The notes under the pieces are model-generated. The model did no database searches. It was not told the DNA's origin and saw only the letters and a list, made by a program, of their open reading frames with translations. This document shows, piece by piece, positions 25,494 to 41,652 of a DNA stretch of 64,000 nucleotides. Origin of the DNA: Yersinia alsatica (GTDB lineage: Bacteria; Pseudomonadota; Gammaproteobacteria; Enterobacterales; Enterobacteriaceae); contig NZ_CABHWW010000028.1 of the NCBI RefSeq assembly GCF_902170305.1, positions 62,001 to 126,000 of the forward strand, given 5' to 3'. Position numbers and translations under genes: made by a program. Position 1 is the first letter of the stretch. Each line of letters begins with the position of its first letter.

Positions 25494-26533
25494 GAACGTC
25501 CGGACTCCCGGATTAAAAGCCAAATAAGATACAGGCCGCCGATGCTGATGGTGACCACGCCCACCGGCAACTGATTCGGTGCGAACAGATGTTGGGAGCA
25601 TAAATCAGCAGCAATTAATAAGAATGCCCCCATCAGCGCCGAAGTGGTTAAGGTGACGGAGGAGGTGCCCGCCAGGCGCTTGGCAATCTGTGGTGCCGCT
25701 AAGGCGATAAAGGAAATTGGCCCGGCCGCCGCCGTGACCGCTGCCATCAAAATTACCCCAATAGCCATCAAGCCCAGACGTGTTTTCTCAACCGGAACAC
25801 CTAAGGCACCGGCAGCATCATCGCCCATCTCCAACAATGGCATACGCCGACTTAGCAACATGGCAGCCACGGTGGCTATCAAGATAAATATTACCGATGG
25901 CAGGCCTTTGGCCCACGTCAGCCCATTCAGCGAACCGGCACCCCAAGCGGCGGCTGTCATGGCGGCCTCCAATGATGCAGTGATGGTCAGCCAGGTATTG
26001 AATGCCGTCAGCATCGCGCCAATGGCAATACCCACAATAATCAGCCGAAAACCTTGAACCCCTTGGCGATAAGCTAACAAATAGACCGCAATTGCAGACA
26101 GCAAACCGCCGCCAAGGGCGCTACTGGCAATCTCAAAATAGTTGCCGTTAAACAAGGTGATTGCCACCAGCGCGCCGGTATAGGCTCCCGCATTAAAGCC
26201 GATGATATCGGGGCTGCCTAAAGGGTTACGCACTAATGATTGAAATATTGCGCCACTGATACCCAGAGCCGCGCCGAAAATTAGCGCCATTACCGCTCGG
26301 GGCAGTCGCCATTGGTTGACAATAATATTCGCCGCGCCACTGGTGTGGCCGAATAGAGCATCAAGTACCTGTTGAGGAGATAACGATAAAGTGCCGATCA
26401 TCAGTGCCAGTAGGGCACCCAATAAGCAGGCCAGAAGCAGCAAACTGCTCACTATCAGATTACGAGGCTGGATGCGCAGATTTATCGGGCCATCAGGGCG
26501 GCCGAATAGCCAAAGTGAAGTGGCTGGTTTCAT
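25490..26533 (-). CDS. fepG: Ferric-siderophore permease subunit FepG
   Basis: A 347-residue FecCD-family permease with about ten membrane helices. Family landmarks are WRLPRAVMALIFGAALGISGAIFQSLVRNPLGSPDIIGFNAGA, ALGVPVEKTR (the cytoplasmic loop that contacts the ATPase) and AGPISFIALAAPQIAKRL. It forms the inner-membrane channel with FepD. It overlaps fepD and fepC by four bases each, so fepDGC are translationally coupled. Confidence 0.93.
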   Translation of the reverse strand: MKPATSLWLFGRPDGPINLRIQPRNLIVSSLLLLACLLGALLALMIGTLSLSPQQVLDALFGHTSGAANIIVNQWRLPRAVMALIFGAALGISGAIFQSLVRNPLGSPDIIGFNAGAYTGALVAITLFNGNYFEIASSALGGGLLSAIAVYLLAYRQGVQGFRLIIVGIAIGAMLTAFNTWLTITASLEAAMTAAAWGAGSLNGLTWAKGLPSVIFILIATVAAMLLSRRMPLLEMGDDAAGALGVPVEKTRLGLMAIGVILMAAVTAAAGPISFIALAAPQIAKRLAGTSSVTLTTSALMGAFLLIAADLCSQHLFAPNQLPVGVVTISIGGLYLIWLLIRESGRS

Positions 26534-27576
26534 AGTGCGGTCATCCTTTGGTTACTTCGAACCAGCCAGATCAACAAAGGTGCGCCAATAAACGCGGTGA
26601 CGACGGAAACCCGTAATTCCCCGGGAACCAAAAAACGGCCCACAATATCAGAGACTAATAACAGAATAGGCGTCATTACCAGTGTGAAAGGTAGAATCCA
26701 ACATTGATTCGGCCCGACAATCCAGCGAGCAATATGCGGTACCATCAGGCCAACAAAGGCGATAGGGCCGACGGCGGCGGTAGCAGCGCCACAGAGTAAG
26801 GTCACGGTGACTACCGTCCAAAATTGGGTTTGTGCAATGCGCGCGCCAATGGCGGCGGCCAAATCTTCCCCCATATGCATGGCATTGAGTGGGCGAGCCA
26901 GCAGCAAGGCTATCACGCAGCCGATAGCAATTGCTGGTGCTACCGCCATCACCACCGACATATTGCGAATATCCAGAGAACCGGCTTGCCAGAAGCGCAC
27001 CTTGTCGTAGACCTGCGGATGAGTCAGTGAGATGCCGGTGGTAATCCCCAGTAACACCGCGGCGATAGCCACGCCAGAAAGTGTGAGGCGCAGGGGATTC
27101 ACTCGCCCACCTCCCAGGGTACCCACCCAATACACCACCAACGTGGTGACCATGGCACCGATAAACGCCGAGATCATATAGCCATGAATGGCCTGAACGC
27201 CGAACACCGTAATCCCTATCACTACGGCAAAGCTGGCTCCAGCATTAACGCCCAGAATTCCAGGATCAGCCAGCGGGTTGCGGGTCAGTGCTTGAATCAC
27301 TGCACCCGATAGCCCCAACGCGGCACCGGCAAGCACCCCAATTAGCGTGCGAGGCAGACGTGATTCTAAAATTAAAATACTGTCGGCGCTGTTGTGCTCC
27401 CCCAACAAACTCTGCCAGACCACCGAAAAAGGGATGGCTTTGGCACCGAGCATCAGGCTGGCGGCCATCACCAGTAGCAAGACAACAATGCTGAGTAACA
27501 GTAAAAACCCACGGTGGGGCGGGGCGGGTTTCAGCGATTTCAATGAAGATGGATTTGGGGAATCAGTGGCTGACAT
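26530..27576 (-). CDS. fepD: Ferric-siderophore permease subunit FepD
   Basis: A 348-residue FecCD-family permease: RLPRTLIGVLAGAALGLSGAVIQALTRNPLADPGILGVNAGA, an AIGARIAQTQ coupling loop and AVGPIAFVGLMVPHIAR, with about ten helices. It is the first gene of fepDGC, preceded by AAGAAGAG at good spacing and by the Fur-like region shared with entS. It should pair with FepG to import the ferric siderophore delivered by FepB. Confidence 0.93.
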   Translation of the reverse strand: MSATDSPNPSSLKSLKPAPPHRGFLLLLSIVVLLLVMAASLMLGAKAIPFSVVWQSLLGEHNSADSILILESRLPRTLIGVLAGAALGLSGAVIQALTRNPLADPGILGVNAGASFAVVIGITVFGVQAIHGYMISAFIGAMVTTLVVYWVGTLGGGRVNPLRLTLSGVAIAAVLLGITTGISLTHPQVYDKVRFWQAGSLDIRNMSVVMAVAPAIAIGCVIALLLARPLNAMHMGEDLAAAIGARIAQTQFWTVVTVTLLCGAATAAVGPIAFVGLMVPHIARWIVGPNQCWILPFTLVMTPILLLVSDIVGRFLVPGELRVSVVTAFIGAPLLIWLVRSNQRMTAL

Positions 27577-27594
27577 TGTAACTCTTCTTTAACA

Positions 27595-27632
27595 AATGAT
27601 TATTGTTATCGTTTTGATTATCATTATTATTT
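27595..27632. promoter_or_regulatory. Fur-box array between fepD and entS
   Basis: Two overlapping matches to the 19-bp Fur consensus are visible: AATGATTATTGTTATCGTT (10 of 19) and one starting GATTATCATTATTATTT (about 12 of 19). They lie 19 bp upstream of fepD and also serve the divergent entS. E. coli has a Fur-controlled divergent promoter at the same place. Confidence 0.7.
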
Positions 27633-27778
27633 GTTTGATGTATGTTAACACGACTTATTATGGGAATGCATCGGCAAAATCAGCTGACTTACCCTATTTC
27701 TGGCAGCAATATTTTCAACTTTCTATTTTTCATAACCATGGCAGGTAATTCTTACCAACATTAACGGATTAAACAATC

Positions 27779-29047
27779 ATGGCAAAATCGCCAATTCTTT
27801 TAGATTTCAGCCTGTTAAAGACTAACGCTAACTTTCGTGCCGTATTTTTTGCCCGCTTTATTTCGATATTAGGGCTTGGGATGCTGACGGTTGCGGTGCC
27901 GGTACAGATACAAATGATGACCGGATCTACCTTGCAGGTCGGGCTGGCAGTGACTTTAGATGGCATAGGGATGTTTATTGGCCTGCTGCTGGGAGGAGTG
28001 CTGGCAGACCGGCTTGACCGACGTAAGCTGATTTTATTCGCGCGCTTTACCTGTGGTTTAGGTTTTATTGGCTTAAGTTTCAATGCGTTTTCCGCTACCC
28101 CTTCGCTGTGGGTACTGTATGTATTAGCCGCCTGGGATGGGTTCTTTGGTGCATTGGGCATGACGGCGCTGATGGCGGCTACACCGTCATTGGTCGGACG
28201 CGAGAATCTGGCCGCCGCAGGGGGATTAAGCATGTTAACCGTGCGCTTTGGCTCGGTTATCTCTCCAGCGATTGGTGGCTTGGTTATTGTGTATGGCGGA
28301 GTGGGTTGGAACTATGGCATTGCCGCCGTGGGGACGATGTTAACCTTGTTGCCGCTATTGAGACTGCCTGCAATGAAACCGGCAACTCACCAGCATGAGC
28401 ACCCGCTACGGGCATTAGCCACCGGGATTTCGTTCGTTTTTAGCCATAAAGTGGTGGGTTCCGTGGTGTTGCTGGGGACGTTGGTCAGTATGATTGGGGC
28501 GATTCGAATTCTGTTCCCGGCACTGGCGGAAAATACCTATCATGTTGGGGCTTCACAGATTGGTTTGATGTATTCCGTCGTGCCACTCGGCGCGACGATT
28601 GGGGCTTTCACCAGTGGCTGGGTGAATCAGGTTCGACGCCCCGGAGTGGTATTGATGTACAGTTCGATTGCCGCCTTTTTAGCTATCGGCACCTTAGGAT
28701 TAACCCATAATTTCTATCTGGCGCTGCCCGGTTTATTGCTGTACGGCTATCTGGGTTCGATTAGCGGATTACTGCAATATACCTTGGTACAAACCCATAC
28801 GCCGGATGCTCTACTGGGGCGGGTAAATAGCTTGTGGAATGTGCAGTTTGTTGCCGGTGAATCATTCGGTGCCTTGGGGCTAGGTGTGCTAGCGAAAGTC
28901 ATGGCGCCGGCGCTCAGCGCTCTGACTTTTGGTGCGGCGGCAGCGGTATTGGGCGGCATAATCGCCGTCTGCGGCGGTACATTACGTAGGGCGACTATGG
29001 GGGGCGAGGGGGAAGACAATAGTGCGGATGAGGTCGTCACGGACTAG
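27779..29047 (+). CDS. entS: Siderophore exporter EntS (MFS)
   Basis: A 422-residue major-facilitator protein with about twelve helices and the EntS pattern: SPILLDFSLLKTNANFRAVFFARFIS, LTVAVPVQIQMMTGSTLQVG, motif A-like GGVLADRLDRRKLILFAR, and LGRVNSLWNVQFVAGESFGALG. It should export the newly made siderophore across the inner membrane. It is divergent from fepDGC across a Fur region, as in E. coli. ATG 27779 is the only reasonable start. Confidence 0.92.
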   Translation: MAKSPILLDFSLLKTNANFRAVFFARFISILGLGMLTVAVPVQIQMMTGSTLQVGLAVTLDGIGMFIGLLLGGVLADRLDRRKLILFARFTCGLGFIGLSFNAFSATPSLWVLYVLAAWDGFFGALGMTALMAATPSLVGRENLAAAGGLSMLTVRFGSVISPAIGGLVIVYGGVGWNYGIAAVGTMLTLLPLLRLPAMKPATHQHEHPLRALATGISFVFSHKVVGSVVLLGTLVSMIGAIRILFPALAENTYHVGASQIGLMYSVVPLGATIGAFTSGWVNQVRRPGVVLMYSSIAAFLAIGTLGLTHNFYLALPGLLLYGYLGSISGLLQYTLVQTHTPDALLGRVNSLWNVQFVAGESFGALGLGVLAKVMAPALSALTFGAAAAVLGGIIAVCGGTLRRATMGGEGEDNSADEVVTD

Positions 29048-29123
29048 CTTACAGGGTAGCGGTCTGGGCGCTATGTTAGCTGACTGAGTTAACCGCCCGC
29101 TGCATAATATTGCGGCGAAATAG

Positions 29124-29149
29124 ACTCGGGGAAGGTTCACTCCCCGAGT
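29124..29149. terminator. Hairpin between convergent entS and yfaP
   Basis: A perfect 9-bp inverted repeat (ACTCGGGGA, 8-base loop, TCCCCGAGT) lies between the two stop codons. It has no T-tract on either side; it is probably bidirectional. Confidence 0.55.
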
Positions 29150-29168
29150 GTCGGTATCGCACCGAACT

Positions 29169-29972
29169 TTACCTGCGATTTGAATAACTAAACTGTTTTA
29201 CCAACGTCAGTTCGCCGGGGTTACGCATCGGTACAATCACCATCTCCTGCTTCTCATTGCTGGTCCCTTCCTCAGTCACGATAGTGATTTGCGCCGTGGT
29301 CAGAATGTCGCTACCACGGCCACCGTAATAGTTTACGTACACTAGATATTGCCCACTATCCGGTGCTGGCGAAGAGAAAATCTCCGGGCCAAAACCAGTG
29401 GTGACATCCATATCCAGCGCCCCACCATTTTGCAACTGTCGGCCACCATACCAAGCATGCTGACCATCGGGAGTGACCACATGCAGGTCGAGATCGGTGT
29501 TATCGGTATCCCATGACAGCACAATCCGTAGGCGCGCAGGGATAGCGCCGCTGCCTCTTTTAGCATAAAACTGGGTACGATGTGCCGCAGTGCGATCAGG
29601 GCTACGAACTTCGACACTGTTACTGCCTTGGGAGAAGATATAAGGCCGTTTAAAATCGCCCTCGTCTTCAATTTTGAGCGGCATACTGACGCCATTAACA
29701 ATCAGCCTACCCGGCTCTTGTCTGGCTTCATCCTTGGGCTTTTGAAAACCTTTTATCTGACCACTGATCAGCGCTTGTGCCGACTGGTTGGCGGGCGTAT
29801 TCACTGACGCGGCCGGATAGTTAACCTGCTGGGTAAAATTGGCCCCTTCACCTGAAGTGTCATGCCACCCGGCGACCGGCGTATCAATCACCACATTTTG
29901 CGCTGCCATCGCCGATATAGCGGGCACCAGCAACACTAGCGAACACATCCTGTATAGCAAGCGAGTAATCAT
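29169..29972 (-). CDS. yfaP: Secreted DUF2135 protein YfaP
   Basis: A 267-residue protein with a signal peptide ending SAMA-A (near residue 23) and a C-terminal DUF2135 beta-domain (about 145-245: LRIVLSWDTDNTDLDLHVVTPDGQ, GGALDMDVTTGFGPE, GQYLVYVNYYGG). The family function is unknown; the Asp-rich DLDLHV strand suggests a calcium- or surface-binding Ig-like fold, which is inference. It is last in the yfaA-T-S-Q-P operon, 54 bp after yfaQ, and presumably acts in the periplasm with the macroglobulin YfaS. Confidence 0.85.
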   Translation of the reverse strand: MITRLLYRMCSLVLLVPAISAMAAQNVVIDTPVAGWHDTSGEGANFTQQVNYPAASVNTPANQSAQALISGQIKGFQKPKDEARQEPGRLIVNGVSMPLKIEDEGDFKRPYIFSQGSNSVEVRSPDRTAAHRTQFYAKRGSGAIPARLRIVLSWDTDNTDLDLHVVTPDGQHAWYGGRQLQNGGALDMDVTTGFGPEIFSSPAPDSGQYLVYVNYYGGRGSDILTTAQITIVTEEGTSNEKQEMVIVPMRNPGELTLVKQFSYSNRR

Positions 29973-30026
29973 AGTGTAATCCTGAAAAACATAGAGTCCT
30001 TTGATGACGATCCTAGCGCTATCGTC

Positions 30027-31670
30027 TTATTCCAATAAAAGGTGACGGGCAAGTTGCTCAACAAAGGCTTCATCCTGACCATTAGGATGAGCCGCAAAAG
30101 CCAAGTGTAAGTATTCATGGGCCAGATCTAACCGATCTTGCAATGAGTAAAGATCCCGTACATAGATACGGCCATACATACGATCAACATGGGGTTTACC
30201 TGAGAGTAAACGGCAGACTGTAAACTGCTGTAGTGGTGTATAGCCCGGCTCACTGTACAGTTTCTCGCGCCAACGCCGCTGCTGTGCAGCTAACCAGACT
30301 TCAGCCTCTTTCAGCGGCTGGCACAATATTTCCGGCTTATCCCAACGCCCCAAATTAGCCCTTGGAAAAGCCTGTGCGAGGATGGCGTCATAGCGCAGTC
30401 CCTGTTGGGCCTGAGAGACAGCTAATTGCCAAGACAAGCGGTTATTGCCCGCTTGATTGAGATGATAGTTGACCGGTGATCCCGCCAGCACCAGATCGGC
30501 AGTCCAGGCCGCGATGGCTAATGTTGCCGGTGAGGCGGGGGTAGGAGCCACTCGCTGGCTGGCGCTACTGTCGGTCATTAGCAAGCAATCACCGGAGCGG
30601 CTGGCATTTTGTAATAGATAACTGCGGATCGCTATCGCCAACGCTTTTGCTGCTTCGGTGGGCTGCGCTGCGGCTTCTCGTTGCAGCACGCGCGCCACAT
30701 ACTCTTCGCGATCCAGACGCGCAGTCAGGATGAAATCATCACCATTTTTTTGTAGAAAAAGTTCACCGCGGCTCTCAATGGCCAAGTGGTTGCCGTTGCG
30801 AAACTCAACGTCATACTTTCCTTGTAAAACACCCACCGAGACCGGGGATTGCTCGCTGTAGCGGCGCAGACTGGCGATGGGATAACGGTCAAACAGCTTC
30901 ACGACCACGCAGACTTTGCGGTCTGTAGGAGAGGCCAGCGGTAACACTGAATTCAATATGTCTGCATAATTTTGCACGATGGTTTTACTGGTGCCAGCTC
31001 CGCCCGCCCAAACCGGGGTGCCATCGTTCAACCAGCCAGCAAACCCACCCTGACGCTGAGTGGGGTCTTGGTCATCCAGCCAGCTCCAGGTTTTGATTCG
31101 CAGCCGGCTGCCTAGCGCACCAACCAAGTTGCCACCAGCAGCCAGTAGTACATCGAGCAACACATTACGTGCCTGCTGCTGTGCGGGCAGTGAGGCTAAT
31201 ACCGTCAGCAACTGAGTGACCGGAACTTGGGTGCTCGGCTGTAGCTGTGTTAAGTCCCGTAACCACTCAGGGCTTTGCTGCTGTTGCCAATAGTTGGACC
31301 ACTGCTGTGGCTCCAAATGCAGGCGTTGGGGGCTGAAATAAAGCCCGCAGGATTGCACCAAAGCCCGATCGCGGGTGATGGTCTGACCCACTTTACAGCA
31401 GTAAACTTCTTCCTGTGGCTGGCTCCCATTACACTGATACTCAGCTTCTTGTTGCTGAGTATCCACCAGATACGCATAAACAAATAGCTTCCAGATGCTC
31501 CCCAATGGCGTGGTCAGTTCAGCCGGTAGCGGTTGCTGTGAAAGCTGCCGGTTCTGGCTTAAGGTCAGCAGAGTATCTTGCTGACCATCGCGCAGGGCCA
31601 ACTGTAATCTCGACTCTGCGCCAAAGACCGTCACGGGTATCAACAACAACAGCCACCACCAACGGAACAT
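30027..31670 (-). CDS. yfaQ: Secreted DUF2300 protein YfaQ, PBP-like plus SpoIID-like regions
   Basis: A 547-residue protein with a signal peptide ending VFG-A. I see two enzyme-like regions. Residues ~45-260 carry PLGSIWKLFVYAYL with an SxxK (S58, K61), then SCG at 107-109 where PBPs have SxN, and a KTxS at 193-196, arranged like a penicillin-binding transpeptidase with a degraded second motif. Residues ~320-440 (YVARVLQREAAAQPTEAAKALAIAIRSYLL, with Glu near 332, and VLAGSPVNYH) resemble the SpoIID lytic transglycosylase. A final part has HEYLHLAFAAHP, resembling a metallopeptidase HExxH. Its stop lies one base before the next ATG chain. Function is unproven; peptidoglycan action is my inference. 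Confidence 0.8.
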   Translation of the reverse strand: MFRWWWLLLLIPVTVFGAESRLQLALRDGQQDTLLTLSQNRQLSQQPLPAELTTPLGSIWKLFVYAYLVDTQQQEAEYQCNGSQPQEEVYCCKVGQTITRDRALVQSCGLYFSPQRLHLEPQQWSNYWQQQQSPEWLRDLTQLQPSTQVPVTQLLTVLASLPAQQQARNVLLDVLLAAGGNLVGALGSRLRIKTWSWLDDQDPTQRQGGFAGWLNDGTPVWAGGAGTSKTIVQNYADILNSVLPLASPTDRKVCVVVKLFDRYPIASLRRYSEQSPVSVGVLQGKYDVEFRNGNHLAIESRGELFLQKNGDDFILTARLDREEYVARVLQREAAAQPTEAAKALAIAIRSYLLQNASRSGDCLLMTDSSASQRVAPTPASPATLAIAAWTADLVLAGSPVNYHLNQAGNNRLSWQLAVSQAQQGLRYDAILAQAFPRANLGRWDKPEILCQPLKEAEVWLAAQQRRWREKLYSEPGYTPLQQFTVCRLLSGKPHVDRMYGRIYVRDLYSLQDRLDLAHEYLHLAFAAHPNGQDEAFVEQLARHLLLE

Positions 31671-34600
31671 TTACTTCACCACCAGAGTATTTAAGGCGCT
31701 GCCACTTTCTGTTGCTGCGTCTTGTGGCGCATACATGCGCGAATAACGGATGGGTGGCAGCACAAACTGCCCTTTCTGTGAGAAGCGCACCAAATGCTGA
31801 TAAACCTTGGAATCTATCAATTCATCAACCGGTACCACATAAGAGAGCTGACCCATTTCATTGTGCGCTTTCTCAATCGGTACTGCGCCCTTGTCACTCA
31901 GACCCGCCACTTGTATACCCCAAGTGGTACGTTCGATATCTGCCCCCGGAGGCAAAGGCACTTCTAATAGCATGTAGCGCTGAGGTGTCGCAGACTTATT
32001 CACTAACGTCACCTCATCGAGATACAGCGCATCGCTGGAAAGTGCCTCTCCTGCAGCGACTGGTTTCACCGTAAACTCAAAGGCCTTATCCCCAGGGATC
32101 AATTGCAATAAGCGATGCTGGATCTCCACCTTTAATGGCTGTTTATGGCTATCGGCGGCGGCAGTTAGTGGCAAGTTAAAGCTCAGCGAGGCCTCAAGCG
32201 GCTCAGCCTGATCCGCGGGTAACTCAACCGCCGCTAACGTGCCTTGCCCTTGCCACTGCCAGTAACGTTCCCCCGTCGCGGCCTGTTGCAGCCGCCAGCC
32301 TTCACCCGGATTAAAATGAACCGGTGGTACGGTGGTACCGAGTGAGTTATAGATCCACGTCAAGGCCAATGCCCGCTCCGGCCCTTGCTGTGCTGGCATC
32401 AGTTGCTGCAATAACCAGGCCACTTGCGGGGCATCGGCACTGCGAGTCCGCCATATTGCGGCATAAGCAAACGGATGTTCACTGAACGAGATAAACTCTT
32501 GGCTTTGACGCAATGCTTGCAACTCTTGCTCTGACAGTGTGTAACCGGGCATCTGTTGTAATAACGAATAGGTCAGTGCCTGCGCCACGGCTAGGCCTAA
32601 TTTGGAATTAGGCGCGGTCATCACCAAGCTATCGGTTTCGGACAGTGATGCCCCTGATTCGGCTTGCGCGTGAGGGAACGAATCCGCCAATCCTTGTAGC
32701 AAGCTGCTGACTGGCAGATGCATATCATGGGCGAATGTCAGTAGCAGAGCGCGATGGAGCAGTGGCATCTCTTCAGCCTGCTTCGCATACAGCTCCAAGA
32801 TTCGCTGCCAGTGTTCTGCCGGTAATGTCATGCCCAATGCTTGGCTGGCATACCAATCGGCATAGTAGGCATAGGCGGTCAAGAAGGCATCGCCATCACC
32901 GTCCTCACCCCACCAAGTGAAAGTGGCTCCCGGCCCGGCCATCTGTACTAACCGCTGGCGGTTGTTCTGCATGATTTGTCGTAAAACATTCCCCCGCTGC
33001 GCATCTTCTTTGGCCAACATGTTGTAAGCCAAGCTGAGAGGCAACAAACGGCTGGCGGTATTAATCACTCCGCCGAAAGGCTCATTGAGCAGGTCATCCA
33101 GACTGTTACGGAACATGGATTGCGCATCGCCATTGAGGCGCAGACGAATGTCATCAGTATTGGCTGGCAGATTGAGTTTATTGCTCCCCGCCTGCAGTCG
33201 AATATCCTGCTGTTGCGGCACTGGCCAAGTGCTGTCGAGCACATTCAGGTCAACACTCAGGCTATCTTGTACCTCGCCGTTTTTCACCACTTCGGATGTC
33301 CAGCGGCCAGATTGCATCGCAGCGACCGGCTGAGATATGTAGTTCACCCCTTCATGCAGTGATACCGTTTGGCTCATGCTGCTATCACCATATTGGGTAC
33401 GCAGCTCTACCTGTTCTGCTTGTTGGTTCTGATTGAAGATAAACACGCCCGGCAGTGGATGGTCGCCTTTACGGAACTGTGTCGCGCCACTCCATTTCAG
33501 ATAAAGTGGTTTTTCCGACCGGACAAAATGCTGCTTCTGACCCACTTGCCCCTGTGCATTCTGCGCCCGCACTGTAATGCGCCAGCGAGTCAAAGAGTCT
33601 GGCATGCGGAAGCTGAATGTCGCTTTACCATTGGCATCAGTGACAATATCTGGTTGCCATGCCGCAGTATCAACATCTTCACGCCGTGGACGTTCAAGCA
33701 CTTTGACACTGCGATCGCTGCGATTTGCTGCACCGGGCGCTCGTGGCACGCCGGGTAGCGCCAAGTCGTAAGCAATAAACGACAGGCTGGTACTGGTACG
33801 CACATTGTTGCGTCGTGGGTGATAGAAGAATTGGTCGATAGTGGGCGCTATCTCTGGCTGCAAGGCATAAATCATCTCATCGACGACACTGACGGTGAGA
33901 TGAGCCGACAGAGGCTTGCCGGCAAACTGAGTATCTAAGGTGACGTTTACGTTTTCGCCGGGGCGATAAATATTTTTGTCTGTTTTAACCGTGATATCGA
34001 TACGCGGTATCTCCACCTTGATTCCGGCGTTTTGGAAACTATATTGCCCGCCTTTGCTGTACAGCACGGAGAAGGTCATATTCGGCGCAAAGCTATCCCG
34101 TACTGCGATTTGCGCTAAATATTGGGTATCGCTTAAGCGCTGCGCTTTAATCCACTCCGCGCCAGTTGAGAGCAGTGCAATGTTCTCTACTTTGTCGCGC
34201 TCCAGTGTGAGCAAAGCTTGCTCCACCGGCTCCGGGAAGGTGATCAGCGCCTGAGCCACTTCGCCTAACTGATATTGCGACTTGTCCATCACGATTTCGA
34301 CACTCCCTGGCACTGCTTTCCCACCTGGGCCGCTGACAAAGTGGCTGATGGCCCCCAAGATCATGCCTTGTTCACTTTTCAAGGTGACGGTGTAGGTGCC
34401 GGGTTGCTGGAATGTAATGGCAAACGGGTGGTTTTCGACCTGCAACTGGGCGCTTTCAACTTTACGGTCTTCCAGACGCATCCACTCAAAAATCGCCGGA
34501 TGGTCGCCTCCCGAGAGTTGATTGACATAGCTGAATGACACCTTTTCATTGACGCGGCTAAAGCGCTTTGGTGTGCTCAGGGTGTAGCGCGAAACGCCGC

Positions 34601-36239
34601 GTTCAATCAGAATTTCCCGCGTGGTTTTGACCCGATAAGCCGCTCCATCGCTGGCAAAAATAGTCAGCAGATAGCGACTCGGTTTATCCGCTGCAGGCAG
34701 ATCCAATTTGGCATGACCTTTACTGTCGGTGGTCAATTGCGCTGTTTTCAGCTCAACAGGGAATTTCCCCTGATATTGCAGATCGTTACCGACCATCGAA
34801 AGTTGCTGACTATACAAGCTCAACTCCAGATCTGCATTCGCCACCGGCCTGCCATCGGGGTAGAGCAAAACAAGTTCGCCATTCACCGGTTCATTGGTAC
34901 GAAAATCCGGTTTGGCGGTGACCAGTGAAATTTCGAAATGTGGCTTGATATAACTGGCAACACGGAATGAGCTGCTGTAAACCTGACCGTTGTAGATTGA
35001 CCGTAACTCGTAGCCACCTGCCACTGCATTCTCTGGCAGTTGAAAACGTCCTTGCGCCCCGGATTGACCATCAATAGGTAAATTCAAGGTTTGCAATGTC
35101 GCTCCATTGGCATCCAAAACGGTTAAGCTCAGCGAACCTGATTTCAGTGCGACGGAATCCAGTGCATTTTTGAATTCGCGCCCAACGAGTTTAACCTGAA
35201 CCCAATCACCCGGGCGGTAGAGTGGGCGATCGGTAAAGGCATACAGTTTGGTGTCATAAATCTCACTGTCGTAATAGAAGTTTTCAGAGACAAACACTCC
35301 ACCTTCACTATCTTCCCCCATCACATACGAACGTTCGGGTGAGATATGACGTAAACTCAGCAAGCCACTTTTATCCGTCTGGCCGCTGCTCATCACACCT
35401 AGCCCATCACTCCACAGAATTCGCGTCCCTGCGACGGCCTGCCCGTCATTGCGGCCCACCGTCCACACCAGCAGTTCGTTGCCCGAAATTTTATTCATGG
35501 CGACAGTATTGGAGACAAACACCACGGTAGTGGCCCGATGCTGGCCTATCAGTGCCTCGACTAAATATAGCCCCGGTTTTAAGGTGCCTAACGGAATGTA
35601 GACATTGCCCGGTACCGGCTCCACAAAATTGCTGGATGAGCCCTGTACGTTAGTGTGCTCAGGGGGCTGGATAGGTTTCGCTTCCCAAATGGGGTAACGG
35701 AACTGGCTGATTAATGGCAGATTTTTCAGCGGAGCGAACTGCGGTTGTACAGTGAATTTAGGCTGTGAATTCAGCACATTGCCCATTTTCAGCTCTGGTA
35801 GCGCGTCCGTAACTTCTTGCCGGGTATCAAAAGAAAAAGCGCGCTGCATGACACGGCGCGATTTGCCGTACCAGTTATCCCAAAGATAAGAGAGTGTGTT
35901 GGATAAGCCTTCTCCCTTATATTGGCTTTCGATCATAATGCGATGAAGGTTTTTCTGTTTTTTCAAAAACTCCATCGGCTTATCAATACGATATAAGCGG
36001 ATATCAGCGCCGCCATATTGCTCGGCGTCAAAGCGACGAAAATCACGCCCCGGAGCTTCCAGCCGTACTTTGGCAACTTCATCACTGGCAAAGCTGCTAT
36101 CAGAGAGCAAAAAGAAAGATTGTTGTGGAACATTATAATTGCTCGCCGGAAGTTCGCCTTCGGCGTAAGCCACAGTGAAGGGAATGAACAGCGCCATCCC
36201 CAGCAGCCATTTTTGGCACATATGCGAAAGAATTTTCAT
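31671..36239 (-). CDS. yfaS: Bacterial alpha-2-macroglobulin YfaS, thioester-less
   Basis: A 1522-residue periplasmic macroglobulin. The signal peptide ([26 protein letters not shown]) begins at ATG 36237-36239. MG domains follow ([35 protein letters not shown]), then the central A2M segment ([34 protein letters not shown]) and the thiol-ester-like alpha-helical domain. Where thioester A2Ms have a CLEQ-type motif this protein reads [13 protein letters not shown] (near residue 1053), so it cannot form the thioester, as in E. coli YfaS versus YfhM. It overlaps yfaT by ATGA and abuts yfaQ, so the operon is tightly coupled. Confidence 0.93.
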
Positions 36240-36889
36240 CGTGATAGGAAACCTAAGCGATAAATGCCAATGAAGTTGGGGTTCGATTCGTCGGGTATCC
36301 ATCGGGTATCCTTCCATTTCATCAATTGTTGCATGCTCACTGCACGCATTCCGTTATCTGTCGAAGTCGAAGAGCCAGTGTGATAGGCGATATAGCGCCC
36401 CATCCAGATCATCAAATGTTGATCATCGCCTTGATCAAAAAACAATAGATCGCCCGGCTGCGCCTGATTGAGTTCTCGGCCGATCAGTTGGCTATTAAAT
36501 TGGATCAGCTTGATGGCATCCACGTAGGGGCCTTGCTTATTGCCGCCTTGCTGCCAGCGTTGAGCAAACAGGCGCTGCTGTGGGCTGATATCCAATTCAG
36601 GGGGAAGGTAGCGGTTGGATAAACCATTCGCCCGCAGCCATTTGCTGTCATGAACTTTCAGTGACTCATTGGCCGCAAAACGTACCAGTCCGGCACAGTC
36701 CTGTTGATACCAGCGAGCGCTTGGCCCCTGGCGCAACTGCTCTTCAGCGATACGTACAAACCATGAACGAAATAGGCTGGATTGCTCAGACGTCAGTGGC
36801 GAAACCGGCTCATCAGCCAAGCTACTTCGGCTAAAAAGCATGATTCCAAGCAAACATAACAGGCCAAAAGTGGCGGGTTTGACGGTCAT
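36236..36889 (-). CDS. yfaT: DUF1175 protein YfaT, NlpC/P60-like
   Basis: A 217-residue protein with a signal peptide ending SSLA-D. The motifs look like a papain-like NlpC/P60 peptidase: [11 protein letters not shown] (Cys65), the [10 protein letters not shown] strand, QHLMIWMG (His158) and AYHTG (His170). In NlpC/P60 proteins Cys, His and a third polar residue in that order form the active site that cuts peptidoglycan stem peptides. Family DUF1175 has no assigned function that I know of. ATG 36887-36889 overlaps the yfaA stop (ATGA) and begins the signal peptide; the upstream in-frame ATG was rejected for that reason. Confidence 0.82.
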
Positions 36890-38637
36890 AGTTCCTGCCA
36901 TTTCAGTGGCAACCACTGCCAAGACTCATTGAGCTCGGTATCAGCAGGCAGAATTAAGGCATAACGTTGTTGTGCGGCTAATGCACTTAATTTGGGTAAC
37001 AACAAAGTTTGTGCGGCGTTATAAAATATGGGTTCGACATTCTTTGGCAGGCTGGCGAATACTTCCTGCTTAAATAATTCAGACAGCGCTTCGGGGGCCA
37101 TGTAAACCGGCACCACGGCTTGTTGTGGCAACACATCTGCAATGGGGGGGAAGTTTTTATCTAGCGTTTGCAACGCCTTATTCACCAGTTTGTCATCCAG
37201 AGAGAACAACAGGATTTGACCATGTCGTGCCAGACTGACACGGAAGAACTGGCTGCCCAGCAGACTGTCTTGATCTTTGGCATCACTCGCAGGGTACTGA
37301 CCATAGCGGGAACTGACTTCTCGTTGCCACAGATGTCCGTGATGATTTGCGGTAGCTTCCACGGGAATAGGCTGTTTTTCTCTGGCGCCGATCACCTTGG
37401 TAAACATGCCTGCCAAAGTTTCATCGGTTTGCGCATTGGCCGTTTGTTCTAACTGGCTGACAAATAACGGTGTATACAGATGCGAGTCAGCATACCAACA
37501 TAAGCCGCTGGCCCTATTTAATGCCAATGGGAAGTCTGCCGCGCTTTTGCTGTCGATGGCATCAATACGTTGGAACAAATACTCTGGCACACTTTGCGAT
37601 ACAGGCAGCGCCACACAGAGGCTGGCCCCCATTGGCATGGCTTGCCAAACCGGAGAGAGATCAAAACTGCTATTTTCTCCTTGTTGTTTATCATTCAGCG
37701 CCAAATAGCTTTGCCAACCTTGCGGCCCCATCTCGAAACGTACACCGGCAAATGCCGGAATAAAACGCTGGTAACCAAAGCCTAGATAGTTCGCACTGAC
37801 CGAAATTCGGTGGGCTAAAGGCGAGGTATTTTTAGTGGATTCTGATCCCGCCTCACTTGCCCCTGCACGATTTTTCAGGCCAAAACTTTCAGGCCACGGA
37901 TTCGTACCACTCAATAATATGCTGGTTATCTGAGTAGAGTCCTTGGAAGGAGAATCCTGGTCATACAGCATGTCGATATCGGAAAACAGCAAAAGGTTAT
38001 CGCCGTGGCTGGCAAAAAATAGCTGTTTATTGCCCCCATAATGCCACTGGTAAACGGGAATCGCTTCACTGCCGACTTTCAGTTGTGAAAAGTCGGTGAT
38101 TTCCAGTTGTGTATCTTCTGCTGCGGCCTTCGCCAAGGGTTCTAGCAGGCGTGTCAGGCCACCGCGCTTGATCACTGCCATAAAGTGATTCAACTTGCCA
38201 AGATCATCATGCCAAAGGGCTATATTGGCTGGCTGGTCGAGCAGCATTTCCAGGAAATTGTCACGCAGAGTTAAATCATGCTCGAAGGCAATTCTGCGCA
38301 AGCTGCCAATTAAACCTAGGCGGTCAGCATTATTCTCATAATAGAAGACAAAATCTTCTGTAAGAGTGGCTCGCAAGAAGGGAATAGTGAGTAAGTCATT
38401 GGGTAATTTACTCAGAGATTCGCTTTCGATGAGCACGTCAGGATGATGTAAATCAACTTTCAGATTATTATGCCAAACGAGTTGACTTGGCGGCTGAATA
38501 TAATGTTCAGCGAACCCAATTCGTTGAATTCCCCATGCAATAGCAGAGACAGCCAAAATAGCTCCCGCAGCCCAAAGTCCATATTTGATAAAGCTCTTCC
38601 TTGCAGCAGGCGCTGCGTTTTTATTTTCAGCAGTCAT
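36886..38637 (-). CDS. yfaA: Membrane-anchored DUF2138 protein YfaA
   Basis: A 583-residue protein with one N-terminal membrane helix ([18 protein letters not shown], ~20-37) and a large periplasmic domain ([51 protein letters not shown]). It matches the YfaA/DUF2138 family, resembling DUF3352 solute-protein-like folds, but no catalytic residues are evident. It is first in the operon, overlapping yfaT by four bases, and may anchor the YfaTSQP proteins at the inner membrane (inference). Confidence 0.82.
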
Positions 38638-39082
38638 TCAGCTGTTCCACATAAAACATTAAATTTATACCCGATGAATCCCGCAAGACGGCCTATCACA
38701 CCCCAGTGAACTGCCAAGCACTGATCCATAGCAGTGGCTGTAATCGCCAGCAATGCCGCAGTATAAAGGGCTGGGGGGTAATGTGAGGTTTTATTAGATA
38801 CGTGGCGAAGAATTAAATCAATAACTATAAGAGATAACGTGGTGGTGACGTGATCCTATACCCTGTTTTCTTTCTTTTATTTATAGCAATAAAGGCTGAT
38901 GATATTTAATTGCCATAATATAAGATATTTCTTGGTTATATTTTTCGTTGTTTATCAATTGCCAAATAAATATAAATGTCGAGTGCTATTTATATTTTGG
39001 TATTTAAATCTTTGCTTCGGTATATGTGTGGTGAGTTATGTCGATCGTTATAAAAATATTTCATGCCAGTTGCAAATAGTAA
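38638..39082. other. Intergenic region upstream of the yfa operon
   Basis: About 445 bp between the yfaA start and the end of fepB. The right half is AT-rich. It should contain the yfa operon promoter, but I see no recognisable operator and no credible gene. Confidence 0.5.
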
Positions 39083-39102
39083 GGAGGACAAATTCGTCCT
39101 CC
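39083..39102 (-). terminator. Hairpin downstream of fepB
   Basis: A perfect 7-bp inverted repeat (GGAGGAC, 6-base loop, GTCCTCC) begins 12 bp after the fepB stop. On the minus strand it is followed by TTACTATTTG, a weak T-rich tail. Confidence 0.6.
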
Positions 39103-39113
39103 CATACCCAAGA

Positions 39114-40157
39114 TTATGGCTTTGCCTTAAACATCGTCTCAATCCGCGCTAACAAATTACTCGCACTATAATAATCTAGGCGGAATGTATCATAGCCTGC
39201 AGCATAAACTCGATTGTGTTCAATTGCTGGGATATGAGCTAAAAATTTATTACTTTTCAAGGCATCTATCGCCGGTTGATCACCAGAAAACAGCAAAATA
39301 GTCTCGCCGTTAAGACCTTCGGCTAGCTTCTCTCCGCCCAGTTGGATGATATCTTTGCGGTGCCCCATACTGGTGTTGCCCTTCACTGCGTCAGGAACTT
39401 CTGCCAGTGTGAAGCCCAGCTCCTGCAACAATTTTCCCTGTGCGGAATTTTCGGTCCACAAATTGGCGGTGCTGCCCGCAGCCTGATAGACAAATGCTGA
39501 AGTCGGTTGTGGTGGCAGAGTAATATTCTGCTTTACCTCATTGAGCCGACGAGTGAAATTATCAATCACTTGCTGGGCATCAGCTTCATGCCCGGTTGCT
39601 TGTCCCAGTGCTATGGCCAACTCTTGCCAGCTTTTGTCATCGTAATTAATCACCAGAGTGGGGGCGATTGCTGACAATTGCTCATATAACTTCAATGCCG
39701 AATCTCCGCCAGTGGCAGAAATGATAATCAAATCTGGATTCATACCCGCAACAGCTTCGGCATTAGGTTCTGTCTGGTACATAGGAACGAGTTTTTTAGC
39801 TTGTGCAACATCTGACCATTGGGTAAAGAAACCTTGATGATCGGCGACTGTGGTGTCGGGCACCGTCGCCCCAGTAGCAATTACCGGCGCATTGATCGCC
39901 AGCAAAGTACCGGTGATGGTAATGCTGGTGGACACAATACGCATTGGCTGATGTGTCAGTGTCACCGGGCCTTTCGCCGTTTCCACGGTACGCGACCATG
40001 TAGATGTGTTTTCACTGTCTGATGGAGAGGCTTGCTTACCTGTTGTTTCTTCAGCCGGTTTACAGCCGGATAAGCAGAAAATAAGGCTCAAAATCCCCAA
40101 GCCAGTCAATACTGAACGGAATTTTTTGTGCTGAATATGATGGATACCAAGGGACAT
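39114..40157 (-). CDS. fepB: Ferric-siderophore binding protein FepB (predicted lipoprotein)
   Basis: A 347-residue FepB-type binding protein: VTLTHQPMRIVSTSITITGTLLAINAPVIATGATVP, FFTQWSDVAQAKKLVPMYQ, PDLIIISATGGDSAL, and the C-terminal YDTFRLDYYSASNLL. It should deliver the ferric siderophore to FepDG. The signal sequence ends in a lipobox (LSGC, Cys32), so it is predicted to be membrane-tethered, unlike soluble E. coli FepB. It sits divergent from entC as in E. coli, separated by an intergenic repeat and a Fur-like site. Confidence 0.92.
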   Translation of the reverse strand: MSLGIHHIQHKKFRSVLTGLGILSLIFCLSGCKPAEETTGKQASPSDSENTSTWSRTVETAKGPVTLTHQPMRIVSTSITITGTLLAINAPVIATGATVPDTTVADHQGFFTQWSDVAQAKKLVPMYQTEPNAEAVAGMNPDLIIISATGGDSALKLYEQLSAIAPTLVINYDDKSWQELAIALGQATGHEADAQQVIDNFTRRLNEVKQNITLPPQPTSAFVYQAAGSTANLWTENSAQGKLLQELGFTLAEVPDAVKGNTSMGHRKDIIQLGGEKLAEGLNGETILLFSGDQPAIDALKSNKFLAHIPAIEHNRVYAAGYDTFRLDYYSASNLLARIETMFKAKP

Positions 40158-40185
40158 AATGGCGTTTTCTCTTCCTATTTGTACC

Positions 40186-40290
40186 CGTCATTTTTCAAGT
40201 TGCAGGTGTGCTGGTTGCCCCTGTTGTTTGAGCCACATATTGATTCAAACTCGTCGGGATAACCCCTTTACTGCCTTCCTGCACTCTGAA
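40186..40290. repeat. Intergenic repeat, copy 1
   Basis: The stretch TTCAAGTTGCAGGTGTGCTGG through ACTCGTCGGGAT to CTTCCTGCA resembles the element at 50012-50118 (TTGAAGCTGCAGGGTTG ... GCTCATCGGGAT ... GCCTACCTGCA). It lies between the divergent fepB and entC genes. Confidence 0.55.
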
Positions 40291-40340
40291 ATCTATTAGG
40301 TACATATTAGTAATGGTTAATAATAATATCTTTACATTGA

Positions 40341-40369
40341 TTGACAATGTGAATACTTAGTCGTAATTT
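40341..40369 (+). promoter_or_regulatory. Sigma-70 promoter of entC
   Basis: A consensus -35 TTGACA (40341-40346), a 17-base spacer and a -10 TAATTT (40364-40369) lie about 70 bp before the entC start. Confidence 0.65.
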
Positions 40370-40388
40370 ATCACGCACGAAAGGGAAT

Positions 40389-40407
40389 GATAGTAATTAT
40401 TATTTAG
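40389..40407 (+). promoter_or_regulatory. Probable Fur box upstream of entC
   Basis: GATAGTAATTATTATTTAG resembles the 19-bp Fur consensus and lies 20 bp downstream of the proposed -10, where repressor would block entC transcription. Identified by eye. Confidence 0.6.
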
Positions 40408-40437
40408 ATTACTATTCACATCGCAGTGGAGGTCTCT

Positions 40438-41652
40438 GTGCGATACAGCAACTCTGAAGAACATGGCAGCTCTGAAGAAATGCCCGTTAATTCGCCGTTT
40501 TCAGCCGTACCCTCAGCATTTTTATTCACTTCAAGACACCAGAGTATCAAAACTCAGGGTATCTTCGAGCGAATTCATCAAGCAGCACAAGGTCATGCTG
40601 GTAATGATAATTCTCTGCAAAATACCTTAAAACAGGCATTTCAGCGTGCACGTCATGCCGGGCAGCAACAACCTATCATTGTTGGGGCAATTCCTTTTGA
40701 TGCCAGTCAGGCATCGTGTTTATTTGTACCAGAACATTATCAGCTTTGTGATCGACAAGCTTTGGTCGATGCAGCGCAAGTTGTACATCGCAGCCCCGTG
40801 GCTGTAGGTGCAGTGCGCAGTTTGCCGGATGAAAGTCAATTTAAACAGTGTGTTGCTGAGGCGGTTTCGGCTTGCCAGCGCGGAGCAATCCATAAAGTTG
40901 TGCTTTCGCGCATTCTGGAAATTGATACTGATAGCCCGGTTGATAGTGATCAGGTTATGAATCATTTACTGGTCCAAAACAGCGCAGCACACCACTTCCG
41001 GGTGCCTTTGGCTGATGGTGGGGTACTGCTTGGGGCTAGCCCTGAATTATTGGTACGTAAGCATCAATCTGGCGTCTATACCAATCCATTAGCTGGGTCG
41101 GCAAAACGTCAGGTTGATCCGCAGGATGATTTGGCTATCAGTCAGACGCTATTGGATTCCGCGAAAGACCAATATGAACATCGTCTGGTTATCGATGAAA
41201 TTCGCCGCTTGCTGGCACCGCATTGCCGCACTCTGAATATTCCCTCACAACCTTCATTGATTAACACTGCTGCACTATGGCACTTATCTTCCGCCATCAG
41301 TGGTGAGTTGGAAAACCCGGATATGCCGGTGTTGGAACTGGCGAATTTGTTGCATCCGACTCCCGCTTTGTGTGGTTTACCCACACAAAAAGCCCGGCAG
41401 TTAATCAACCAACTGGAGCCCTTTGATCGCGGTTTATTCAGCGGGATTGTCGGCTGGTGTGATGAGCAGGGTAATGGCGAGTGGGCGGTTATCATCCGCT
41501 GTGCCACTGTGCATCCGACTCAGGTTCGATTATTTGCCGGTGCGGGCATTGTTGCAGCTTCACAGCCCGCGCTGGAATGGGCAGAAACCGAAGCCAAATT
41601 GGGCACCATGCTCAATGCTCTGGCGATTAGACCTTCAGGAGAGCAGCCATGA
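40438..41652 (+). CDS. entC: Isochorismate synthase EntC
   Basis: A 404-residue chorismate-binding enzyme converting chorismate to isochorismate, the first step to 2,3-dihydroxybenzoate. Signatures: [13 protein letters not shown] (catalytic Lys), [66 protein letters not shown], and the C-terminal [33 protein letters not shown] 40438 has GGAGG five bases upstream, so it is preferred to the in-frame GTG at 40426 that overlaps this site. It overlaps entE by four bases. Confidence 0.94.

Follow-up and report, generated by a model that had tools for sequence, protein, structure and literature searches.

YfaQ of the yfaATSQP macroglobulin operon in Yersinia alsatica: a putative secreted zinc protease linked to cell wall-related domains

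Background

The closest described relative of the five-gene set considered here, yfaA-T-S-Q-P of Yersinia alsatica, is the mag operon of Pseudomonas aeruginosa, magABCDEF (PA4492-PA4487). Our set occupies positions 29169-38637, on the minus strand, of a 64,000-nucleotide stretch of contig NZ_CABHWW010000028.1, which we refer to as the window. MagD, a type II macroglobulin, traps protease without a thioester and holds it non-covalently after bait cleavage, and type II macroglobulins in general are stated to have no thioester (PMC5764988). MagA, MagB and MagF bind MagD, and MagB has a membrane helix by which MagD is anchored (PMC5764988). Deletion of magE greatly altered the amount of MagD and gave rise to larger forms, which the authors read as unprocessed MagD; in that 2018 study MagE was assumed to be cytoplasmic, perhaps a chaperone or a helper in signal-peptide removal, and its sections on MagE assign it no activity (PMC5764988). 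The DUF1175 protein MagC has been called inactive and peptidoglycan-binding (PMC10318531). In 2025 MagD was reported to protect against two wall-targeting type VI effectors, VgrG3 and, to a limited extent, Tae1, with the protective mechanism stated in print as unresolved (PMC12663445).

Our literature searches found no paper joining YfaS, macroglobulin and YfaQ and none on DUF2300, DUF2138 or PF10062; DUF1175 alone was mentioned, and one paper connecting it with a coronavirus protein was set aside. Among the papers found, PMC5764988 alone treats MagE as a Mag protein, judging by titles and passages. While the mag operon, the MagC structure, the peptidoglycan link and protease trapping are already published, the domain make-up of YfaQ (MagE) is new here.

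The window carries a mag operon without magA

The yfaATSQP set is the mag operon without magA, because YfaT matches the solved MagC (PDB 7bk8; E 1e-109, residues 25-227). Two further likenesses are the identical gene order in the Pseudomonas loci tested and the YfaS bait ANRSDRS (residues 864-870, 33708..33728), which resembles the published MagD bait ANRSERG. Based on gene order, the bait and the Pseudomonas loci, YfaA, YfaS, YfaQ and YfaP are the probable counterparts of MagB, MagD, MagE and MagF, respectively; for magB as the DUF2138 gene, the assignment comes from gene order.

The five open reading frames (ORFs) appear in the expected order of Pfam domains. The membrane-anchored yfaA product (36886..38637) matches DUF2138 (PF09909, 1.4e-212) and is the MagB homologue by domain and position. 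The yfaT gene (DUF1175, 36236..36922) has a probable ATG start at 36889, and yfaS (31671..36317; MG2, A2M_BRD and A2M), encoding the type II alpha-2-macroglobulin, has a probable start at about 36239. They are followed by yfaQ (DUF2300 and SpoIID, 30027..31670) and yfaP (DUF2135, PF09906 6e-17, 29169..29972), homologues of magE and magF by position. As anticipated from the sequence alone in the original prediction, which described a periplasmic peptidoglycan module built around a macroglobulin, the genes overlap or nearly touch: yfaA overlaps yfaT, yfaT overlaps yfaS if the first possible starts are used, yfaS and yfaQ abut at 31671/31670, and 54 bases separate yfaQ from yfaP. The Pfam matches also bear out its naming of YfaS as an A2M protein and YfaP as a DUF2135 protein.

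To compare operons, 51 loci were scanned over 11 kb, and four were set aside (the relics L027 and L075 and the hitless L028 and L029). The remaining 47 comprised five named Pseudomonas loci, 34 further loci from the Pseudomonas set (chosen from 44 genomes over the cut-off, best scores first and hence not at random), five from the family of the window, one each from E. coli and a Citrobacter plasmid, and G068. Together with the window these gave 48 rows, of which 46 have a full-length YfaQ and two a short one. The gene order A-T-S-Q-P on one strand was found in all 47 loci. Unlike the P. aeruginosa operon, that of the window has no adjoining magA-like second DUF2135 gene, there being no ORF of at least 100 aa between 38637 and 39114; the same five-gene form occurs in E. 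coli C122. A second DUF2135 gene, as magA, is present in 39 of the 47 loci, all of them from the Pseudomonas set (L008-L012 and L078-L111), where it lies upstream of yfaA and is about 40% identical to YfaP.

YfaT was predicted to be an NlpC/P60 protein with Cys65, His158 and His170 as its triad, and this was upheld. Its papain-like NlpC/P60 fold follows from homology to 7bk8, even though the NLPC_P60 Pfam score (21.3) falls just below the cut-off of 23, and the three residues (C76, H169 and H181 when numbered from the TTG start; C65, H158 and H170 from the ATG) are invariant in 48/48 rows. The distance of 12 between the two His residues is typical of active NlpC/P60 enzymes, and that of YfaT equals it. 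Thus, if DUF1175 proteins are inactive, the cause is not a missing triad.

YfaQ ends in a putative minigluzincin-type protease domain

YfaQ has a signal-peptide-like start, in both its full and short forms as judged by eye, and three domains. The C-terminal domain (residues 446-547, 30030..30335) looks like a minigluzincin-type secreted zinc protease. The model of this domain (pLDDT 89.9) resembled the folds of selecase, abylysin, IrrE and the BlaR1 protease, and the gluzincin pattern, with HExxH on one helix and a Glu on the following one, is present as HEYLH-x11-E (HEYLH at 518-522), E534 or E538 being the putative metal-binding Glu. Like the minigluzincins abylysin, jannalysin and selecase, the domain has about 100 residues, with an HExxH helix and then a Glu-bearing helix. 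It differs from them in its signal-peptide-like start, its pair of conserved cysteines and its setting in a macroglobulin operon. A profile search of the PDB with this segment (43 sequences) returned only angiogenins (best E 0.0078), a candidate that we rejected as the shared region spans about 28 residues and does not include the HExxH motif.

Conservation was assessed in the 46 full-length rows, including the window, with the two short rows set aside. Residues S58, K61, S107, K193, T194, S196, E332, H518, E519, H522, D533, E534 and E538 are invariant, as are all eight cysteines of the window protein, and G109 is kept in 44/46. The original prediction had singled out 11 of these positions, in an SxxK, an SxG, a KTxS, a Glu near residue 332 and a HEYLH; all are present and 10 of the 11 are invariant, compared with 132 of 547 columns overall (hypergeometric figure 4.5e-6, a guide only since the rows are related). 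The proposed catalytic residues were therefore conserved wherever they were checked, in both YfaQ and YfaT, and the domain model places HEYLH in a probable HExxH zinc-protease fold.

The N-terminal domain (residues 18-251, 30918..31619) carries S58xxK61, S107-C-G109 and K193-T-W-S196. In fold comparisons based on a weak model its closest matches were class D beta-lactamases and the BlaR1/MecR1 sensors, and the SxxK motif lies at the start of a helix (57-71) in this low-confidence model; a profile search of the PDB with the segment gave no match. The KTG motif of penicillin-recognising proteins reads K193-T194-W195 in 46/46 rows. The suggestion of a degenerate transpeptidase stands insofar as the weak model points to a penicillin-recognising fold and SxxK is kept, with the KTG altered.

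Between these two regions lies a SpoIID domain (PF08486; residues 314-372, 30555..30731), as had been proposed. It scores 29 bits against a Pfam cut-off of 23 and was matched in 19/19 representative members. When the YfaQ family profile was compared with the PDB, SpoIID alone was matched, weakly (three entries, E 0.056-0.12), and E332 aligns with a Glu of solved SpoIID, which we take to be the catalytic one. YfaQ resembles SpoIID/LytB in this profile match and the conserved Glu, but it differs in that only about 60 residues match, the SpoIID_LytB NCBIfam score (17.2) is far below the cut-off of 83.3 bits, and the model of the fold is poor.

Taken together, YfaQ resembles BlaR1/MecR1 in apparently joining a class D beta-lactamase-like sensor fold to a zinc protease, both halves having appeared in its fold comparisons, whereas in YfaQ a SpoIID domain stands between the two halves and the KTG is altered. 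In BlaR1, which resides in the membrane and serves gene control, the domains come in the reverse order.

Foldseek with the whole-protein model gave no match under 0.001, the top ones being mainly ribosomal proteins, and these were discarded. An internal duplication within DUF2300 was also considered, as PF10062 fits residues 84-204 and 411-530 about equally; it was rejected since a profile comparison showed no match between these segments (probability 0.4). The Pfam model looks instead like a mixture of two unrelated YfaQ segments (window 30081-31421). Viral contigs held no relative of the N- or C-terminal domain, and PADLOC gave no match at 0.001 for the five operon proteins.

The zinc domain is retained where the wall-related domains are missing

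The zinc domain is all that the fourth gene encodes in two of the 47 loci (L026 and L076), where it follows a signal-peptide-like start of its own. A DUF2300 search of these two genomes gave one match each, and so, as far as the profile sees, the wall-related domains are not encoded elsewhere in them. As most of the first 47 loci had been found through DUF2300 or YfaQ, the presence of the zinc domain in them is by construction. A phylum-wide search with DUF1175 identified 11 of 264 genomes, with six operons outside the class of the window. Two of these (L180 and L182) are cut by contig ends, while L178, L179, L181 and L183 have the arrangement A-T-S-short Q-P and retain HEY[VL]H as well as the two Glu residues (the YfaA of L183 lies past a contig end). 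The fourth gene was readable in nine of the 11 genomes, namely the window's own, four of its class and four outside it, and the zinc domain was present in 9/9. Addition of G068, which was found with DUF1175 in the class sample (2/369 genomes), brings this to 10/10 operons.

Three loci of the phylum search (L184, L186 and L187) have the same YfaS as L091, L101 and L104 and were not recounted; L185 was new. The fourth gene is then readable in 53 distinct operons, 47 with full YfaQ (46 rows and L185) and six with short YfaQ, in which the wall-related domains are missing and the zinc domain is retained, four of the six being outside the class. On a 53-row YfaS tree made by a quick method, short YfaQ requires two changes among 52 rows (the fourth gene of L182 being unreadable). 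Short YfaQ takes up one whole side of the deepest YfaS split and appears again in L076, which is sister to the window and L073. Under the midpoint root as drawn, itself unproved, the wall-related domains would have been joined to the protease late, with a single reversal. The zinc domain looks to be the core of YfaQ and the wall-related domains additions.

These results shift the weight of the original prediction, which emphasized the wall-related domains and named the HExxH domain last, since it is the latter that the six operons retain. Its proposal that YfaS has wall-acting partners of its own in a wall-damage-sensing or protease-trapping system holds in part: peptidoglycan binding by MagC and protease trapping by MagD were already published, and the wall-related parts of YfaQ are absent from the six operons.

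The thioester and bait of YfaS

YfaS has PDB matches to CD109. At its thioester site the window protein reads GGVINT (GVIN at residues 1083-1086, 33060..33071), so that CxEQ is lost here according to the 48-row alignment, in keeping with the published rule for type II. However, GCVEQ is present at this site in 14/48 rows, and GC[AV]EQ in four of five further YfaS proteins from outside the class; L185 has none. The motif is thus intact in 18 of 54 operon-linked macroglobulins (L026, L082, L083, L084, L088, L089, L090, L093, L096, L097, L100, L102, L107, L109, L178, L179, L181 and L182), and these 18 rows need at least five changes on the 53-row tree, three of them forced by well-supported branches. 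Because of this distribution the thioester looks ancestral in the mag operon, with several losses. The absence of CxEQ does not define the type II group: the rule that type II lacks a thioester is true for the window, E. coli C122 and MagD and not for the group. The thioester-bearing, operon-linked macroglobulins upset the two-type scheme and, as natural relatives, open covalent attachment to testing.

Mean pairwise identity was higher in the bait than in the whole of YfaS, both in the clade of the window (0.772 v 0.571, eight rows) and in the 39 Pseudomonas-set rows (0.917 v 0.757). The type I pair YfhM/PbpC resembles the operon in joining a macroglobulin to a wall-acting neighbor, and both of its genes occur in the genome of the window. 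It differs in having GCLEQ and in adjoining a penicillin-binding synthase rather than a five-gene set. In the window genome (L117, 3868-11307 of G000:C9) the type I macroglobulin gene, with GCLEQ, is followed by a PbpC-like gene, the latter named from a reading of its sequence.

A possible role for YfaQ

We put at about even the chance that YfaQ is a dedicated protease, located at the wall, that processes or activates YfaS. The operon is of a known kind, an inner-membrane-anchored periplasmic defense complex built around the macroglobulin YfaS, in which YfaA would anchor YfaS at the inner membrane, as published for MagB and MagD, and YfaT would bind the wall, as published for MagC. In Gammaproteobacteria, where the protease appears mostly to be fused behind a SpoIID domain and a class D beta-lactamase/BlaR1-sensor-like domain with an altered KTG, exported YfaQ might be held or gated near peptidoglycan, beside YfaT, by its SxxK and SpoIID domains. 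Its zinc domain, if it binds zinc and is proteolytic, would cut YfaS, with which the magE deletion phenotype fits, and the cut YfaS would trap or mark entrants through damaged wall, which fits the protection that MagD gives against VgrG3 and Tae1. Of known designs BlaR1 comes closest: there a sensor of the same fold is combined with a zinc protease, although BlaR1 sits in the membrane and controls genes. As a zinc protease is predicted in every Mag operon with a readable fourth gene, there is one enzyme and one substrate to test.

Several points weigh against this proposal. No stable MagD:MagE complex was found in vitro, MagE was earlier placed in the cytoplasm, and the text and a legend of the same paper conflict over the mutants that do not have the 100 kDa form of MagD (PMC5764988). 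MagD did not protect against TseH or Burkholderia thailandensis (PMC12663445). The C-terminal fold matches all have Foldseek E values >0.001 and VIA Z <8, possibly a common arrangement according to the tool, and the whole YfaQ model is poor (pLDDT 48). The hydropathy test of export is weak, with starts of at least 2.16 in 46/46 rows against a median best stretch elsewhere of 1.92. Bait conservation was dropped as evidence for a dedicated protease, since the type I bait is conserved too (0.784 v 0.668 for the whole, 21 proteins).

A somewhat unlikely alternative is that YfaQ is a peptidoglycan enzyme throughout, combining a SpoIID lytic transglycosylase, an SxxK peptidase and a zinc stem-peptide endopeptidase to clear or trim damaged wall for the Mag complex. 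The invariance of the SpoIID and SxxK residues in 46/46 rows would fit this role, as would the binding of peptidoglycan by YfaT/MagC (PMC10318531) and the importance of MagD against some wall-targeting effectors (PMC12663445). Against it, six operons keep the zinc domain without the wall-related domains, and KTG reads KTW in every full-length row.

Rather unlikely, in our estimation, is a reading in which Mag is complement-like and not a broad protease trap. Upon wall damage the dedicated minigluzincin encoded alongside would cut an ancestrally thioester-bearing macroglobulin, which would then attach to the damaged site or an intruding protein, covalently where CxEQ persists, and in Gammaproteobacteria a BlaR1-like sensor fold and SpoIID, both fused to the protease, would be the wall trigger.

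It is improbable that the zinc protease is instead cargo, latent on YfaS and freed onto intruding proteins when a foreign protease cleaves the bait. While abylysin, a zymogen by its entry title, and selecase, recorded as monomer, dimer and tetramer, are among the best fold matches, and MagD does retain protease non-covalently once the bait is cut, the failure to find a stable MagD:MagE complex and the effect of magE loss on MagD itself (PMC5764988) argue against latent cargo.

The view of the 2018 authors that MagE/YfaQ is a cytoplasmic chaperone or export/signal-peptide helper for MagD, which draws on the earlier MagE localization and on the larger band of MagD seen when magE was deleted (PMC5764988), is very improbable given the signal-peptide-like starts of full and short YfaQ (by eye and by the weak hydropathy test), the invariance of all eight cysteines of the window YfaQ, and three domain types that are usually extracytoplasmic, zinc proteases less so.

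Distribution and decay of the operon

DUF2300 was over the cut-off in two of 369 genomes of the class sample, one of 394 of the order, eight of 198 genomes of the family to which the window belongs (including a broken copy and a weak match containing two stops), two of 25 of the genus (one of them a stop-containing fragment) and 44 of 248 of the Pseudomonas set, while yfaQ DNA matches were found in 5298 of 5426 E. coli genomes. This patchy distribution fits gain by transfer together with decay. In the window (26530-41652) the operon lies between entS (27779-29047) and fepB (39114-40157) of the enterobactin locus, and in E. coli C122 between gyrA and atoB; given these different neighbors, the operon has moved or was separately gained.

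Decayed copies were seen at two loci. In a sister species of the same genus (G774), L027 (17046-17735) is a scar in which only parts of YfaA, YfaQ and YfaP survive. At L075 (7730-11647; G1131) YfaS and YfaQ are in separate pieces, and the stretch gave no hit for YfaA or YfaT. DUF1175 and A2M_BRD also match in Thermotoga maritima, a control genome, so related operons may extend well beyond Pseudomonadota. The Citrobacter portucalensis plasmid NZ_CP134684.1, which is mobilizable, carries a whole operon (L024, 5010-14360) with MBOAT and SGNH genes upstream of it.

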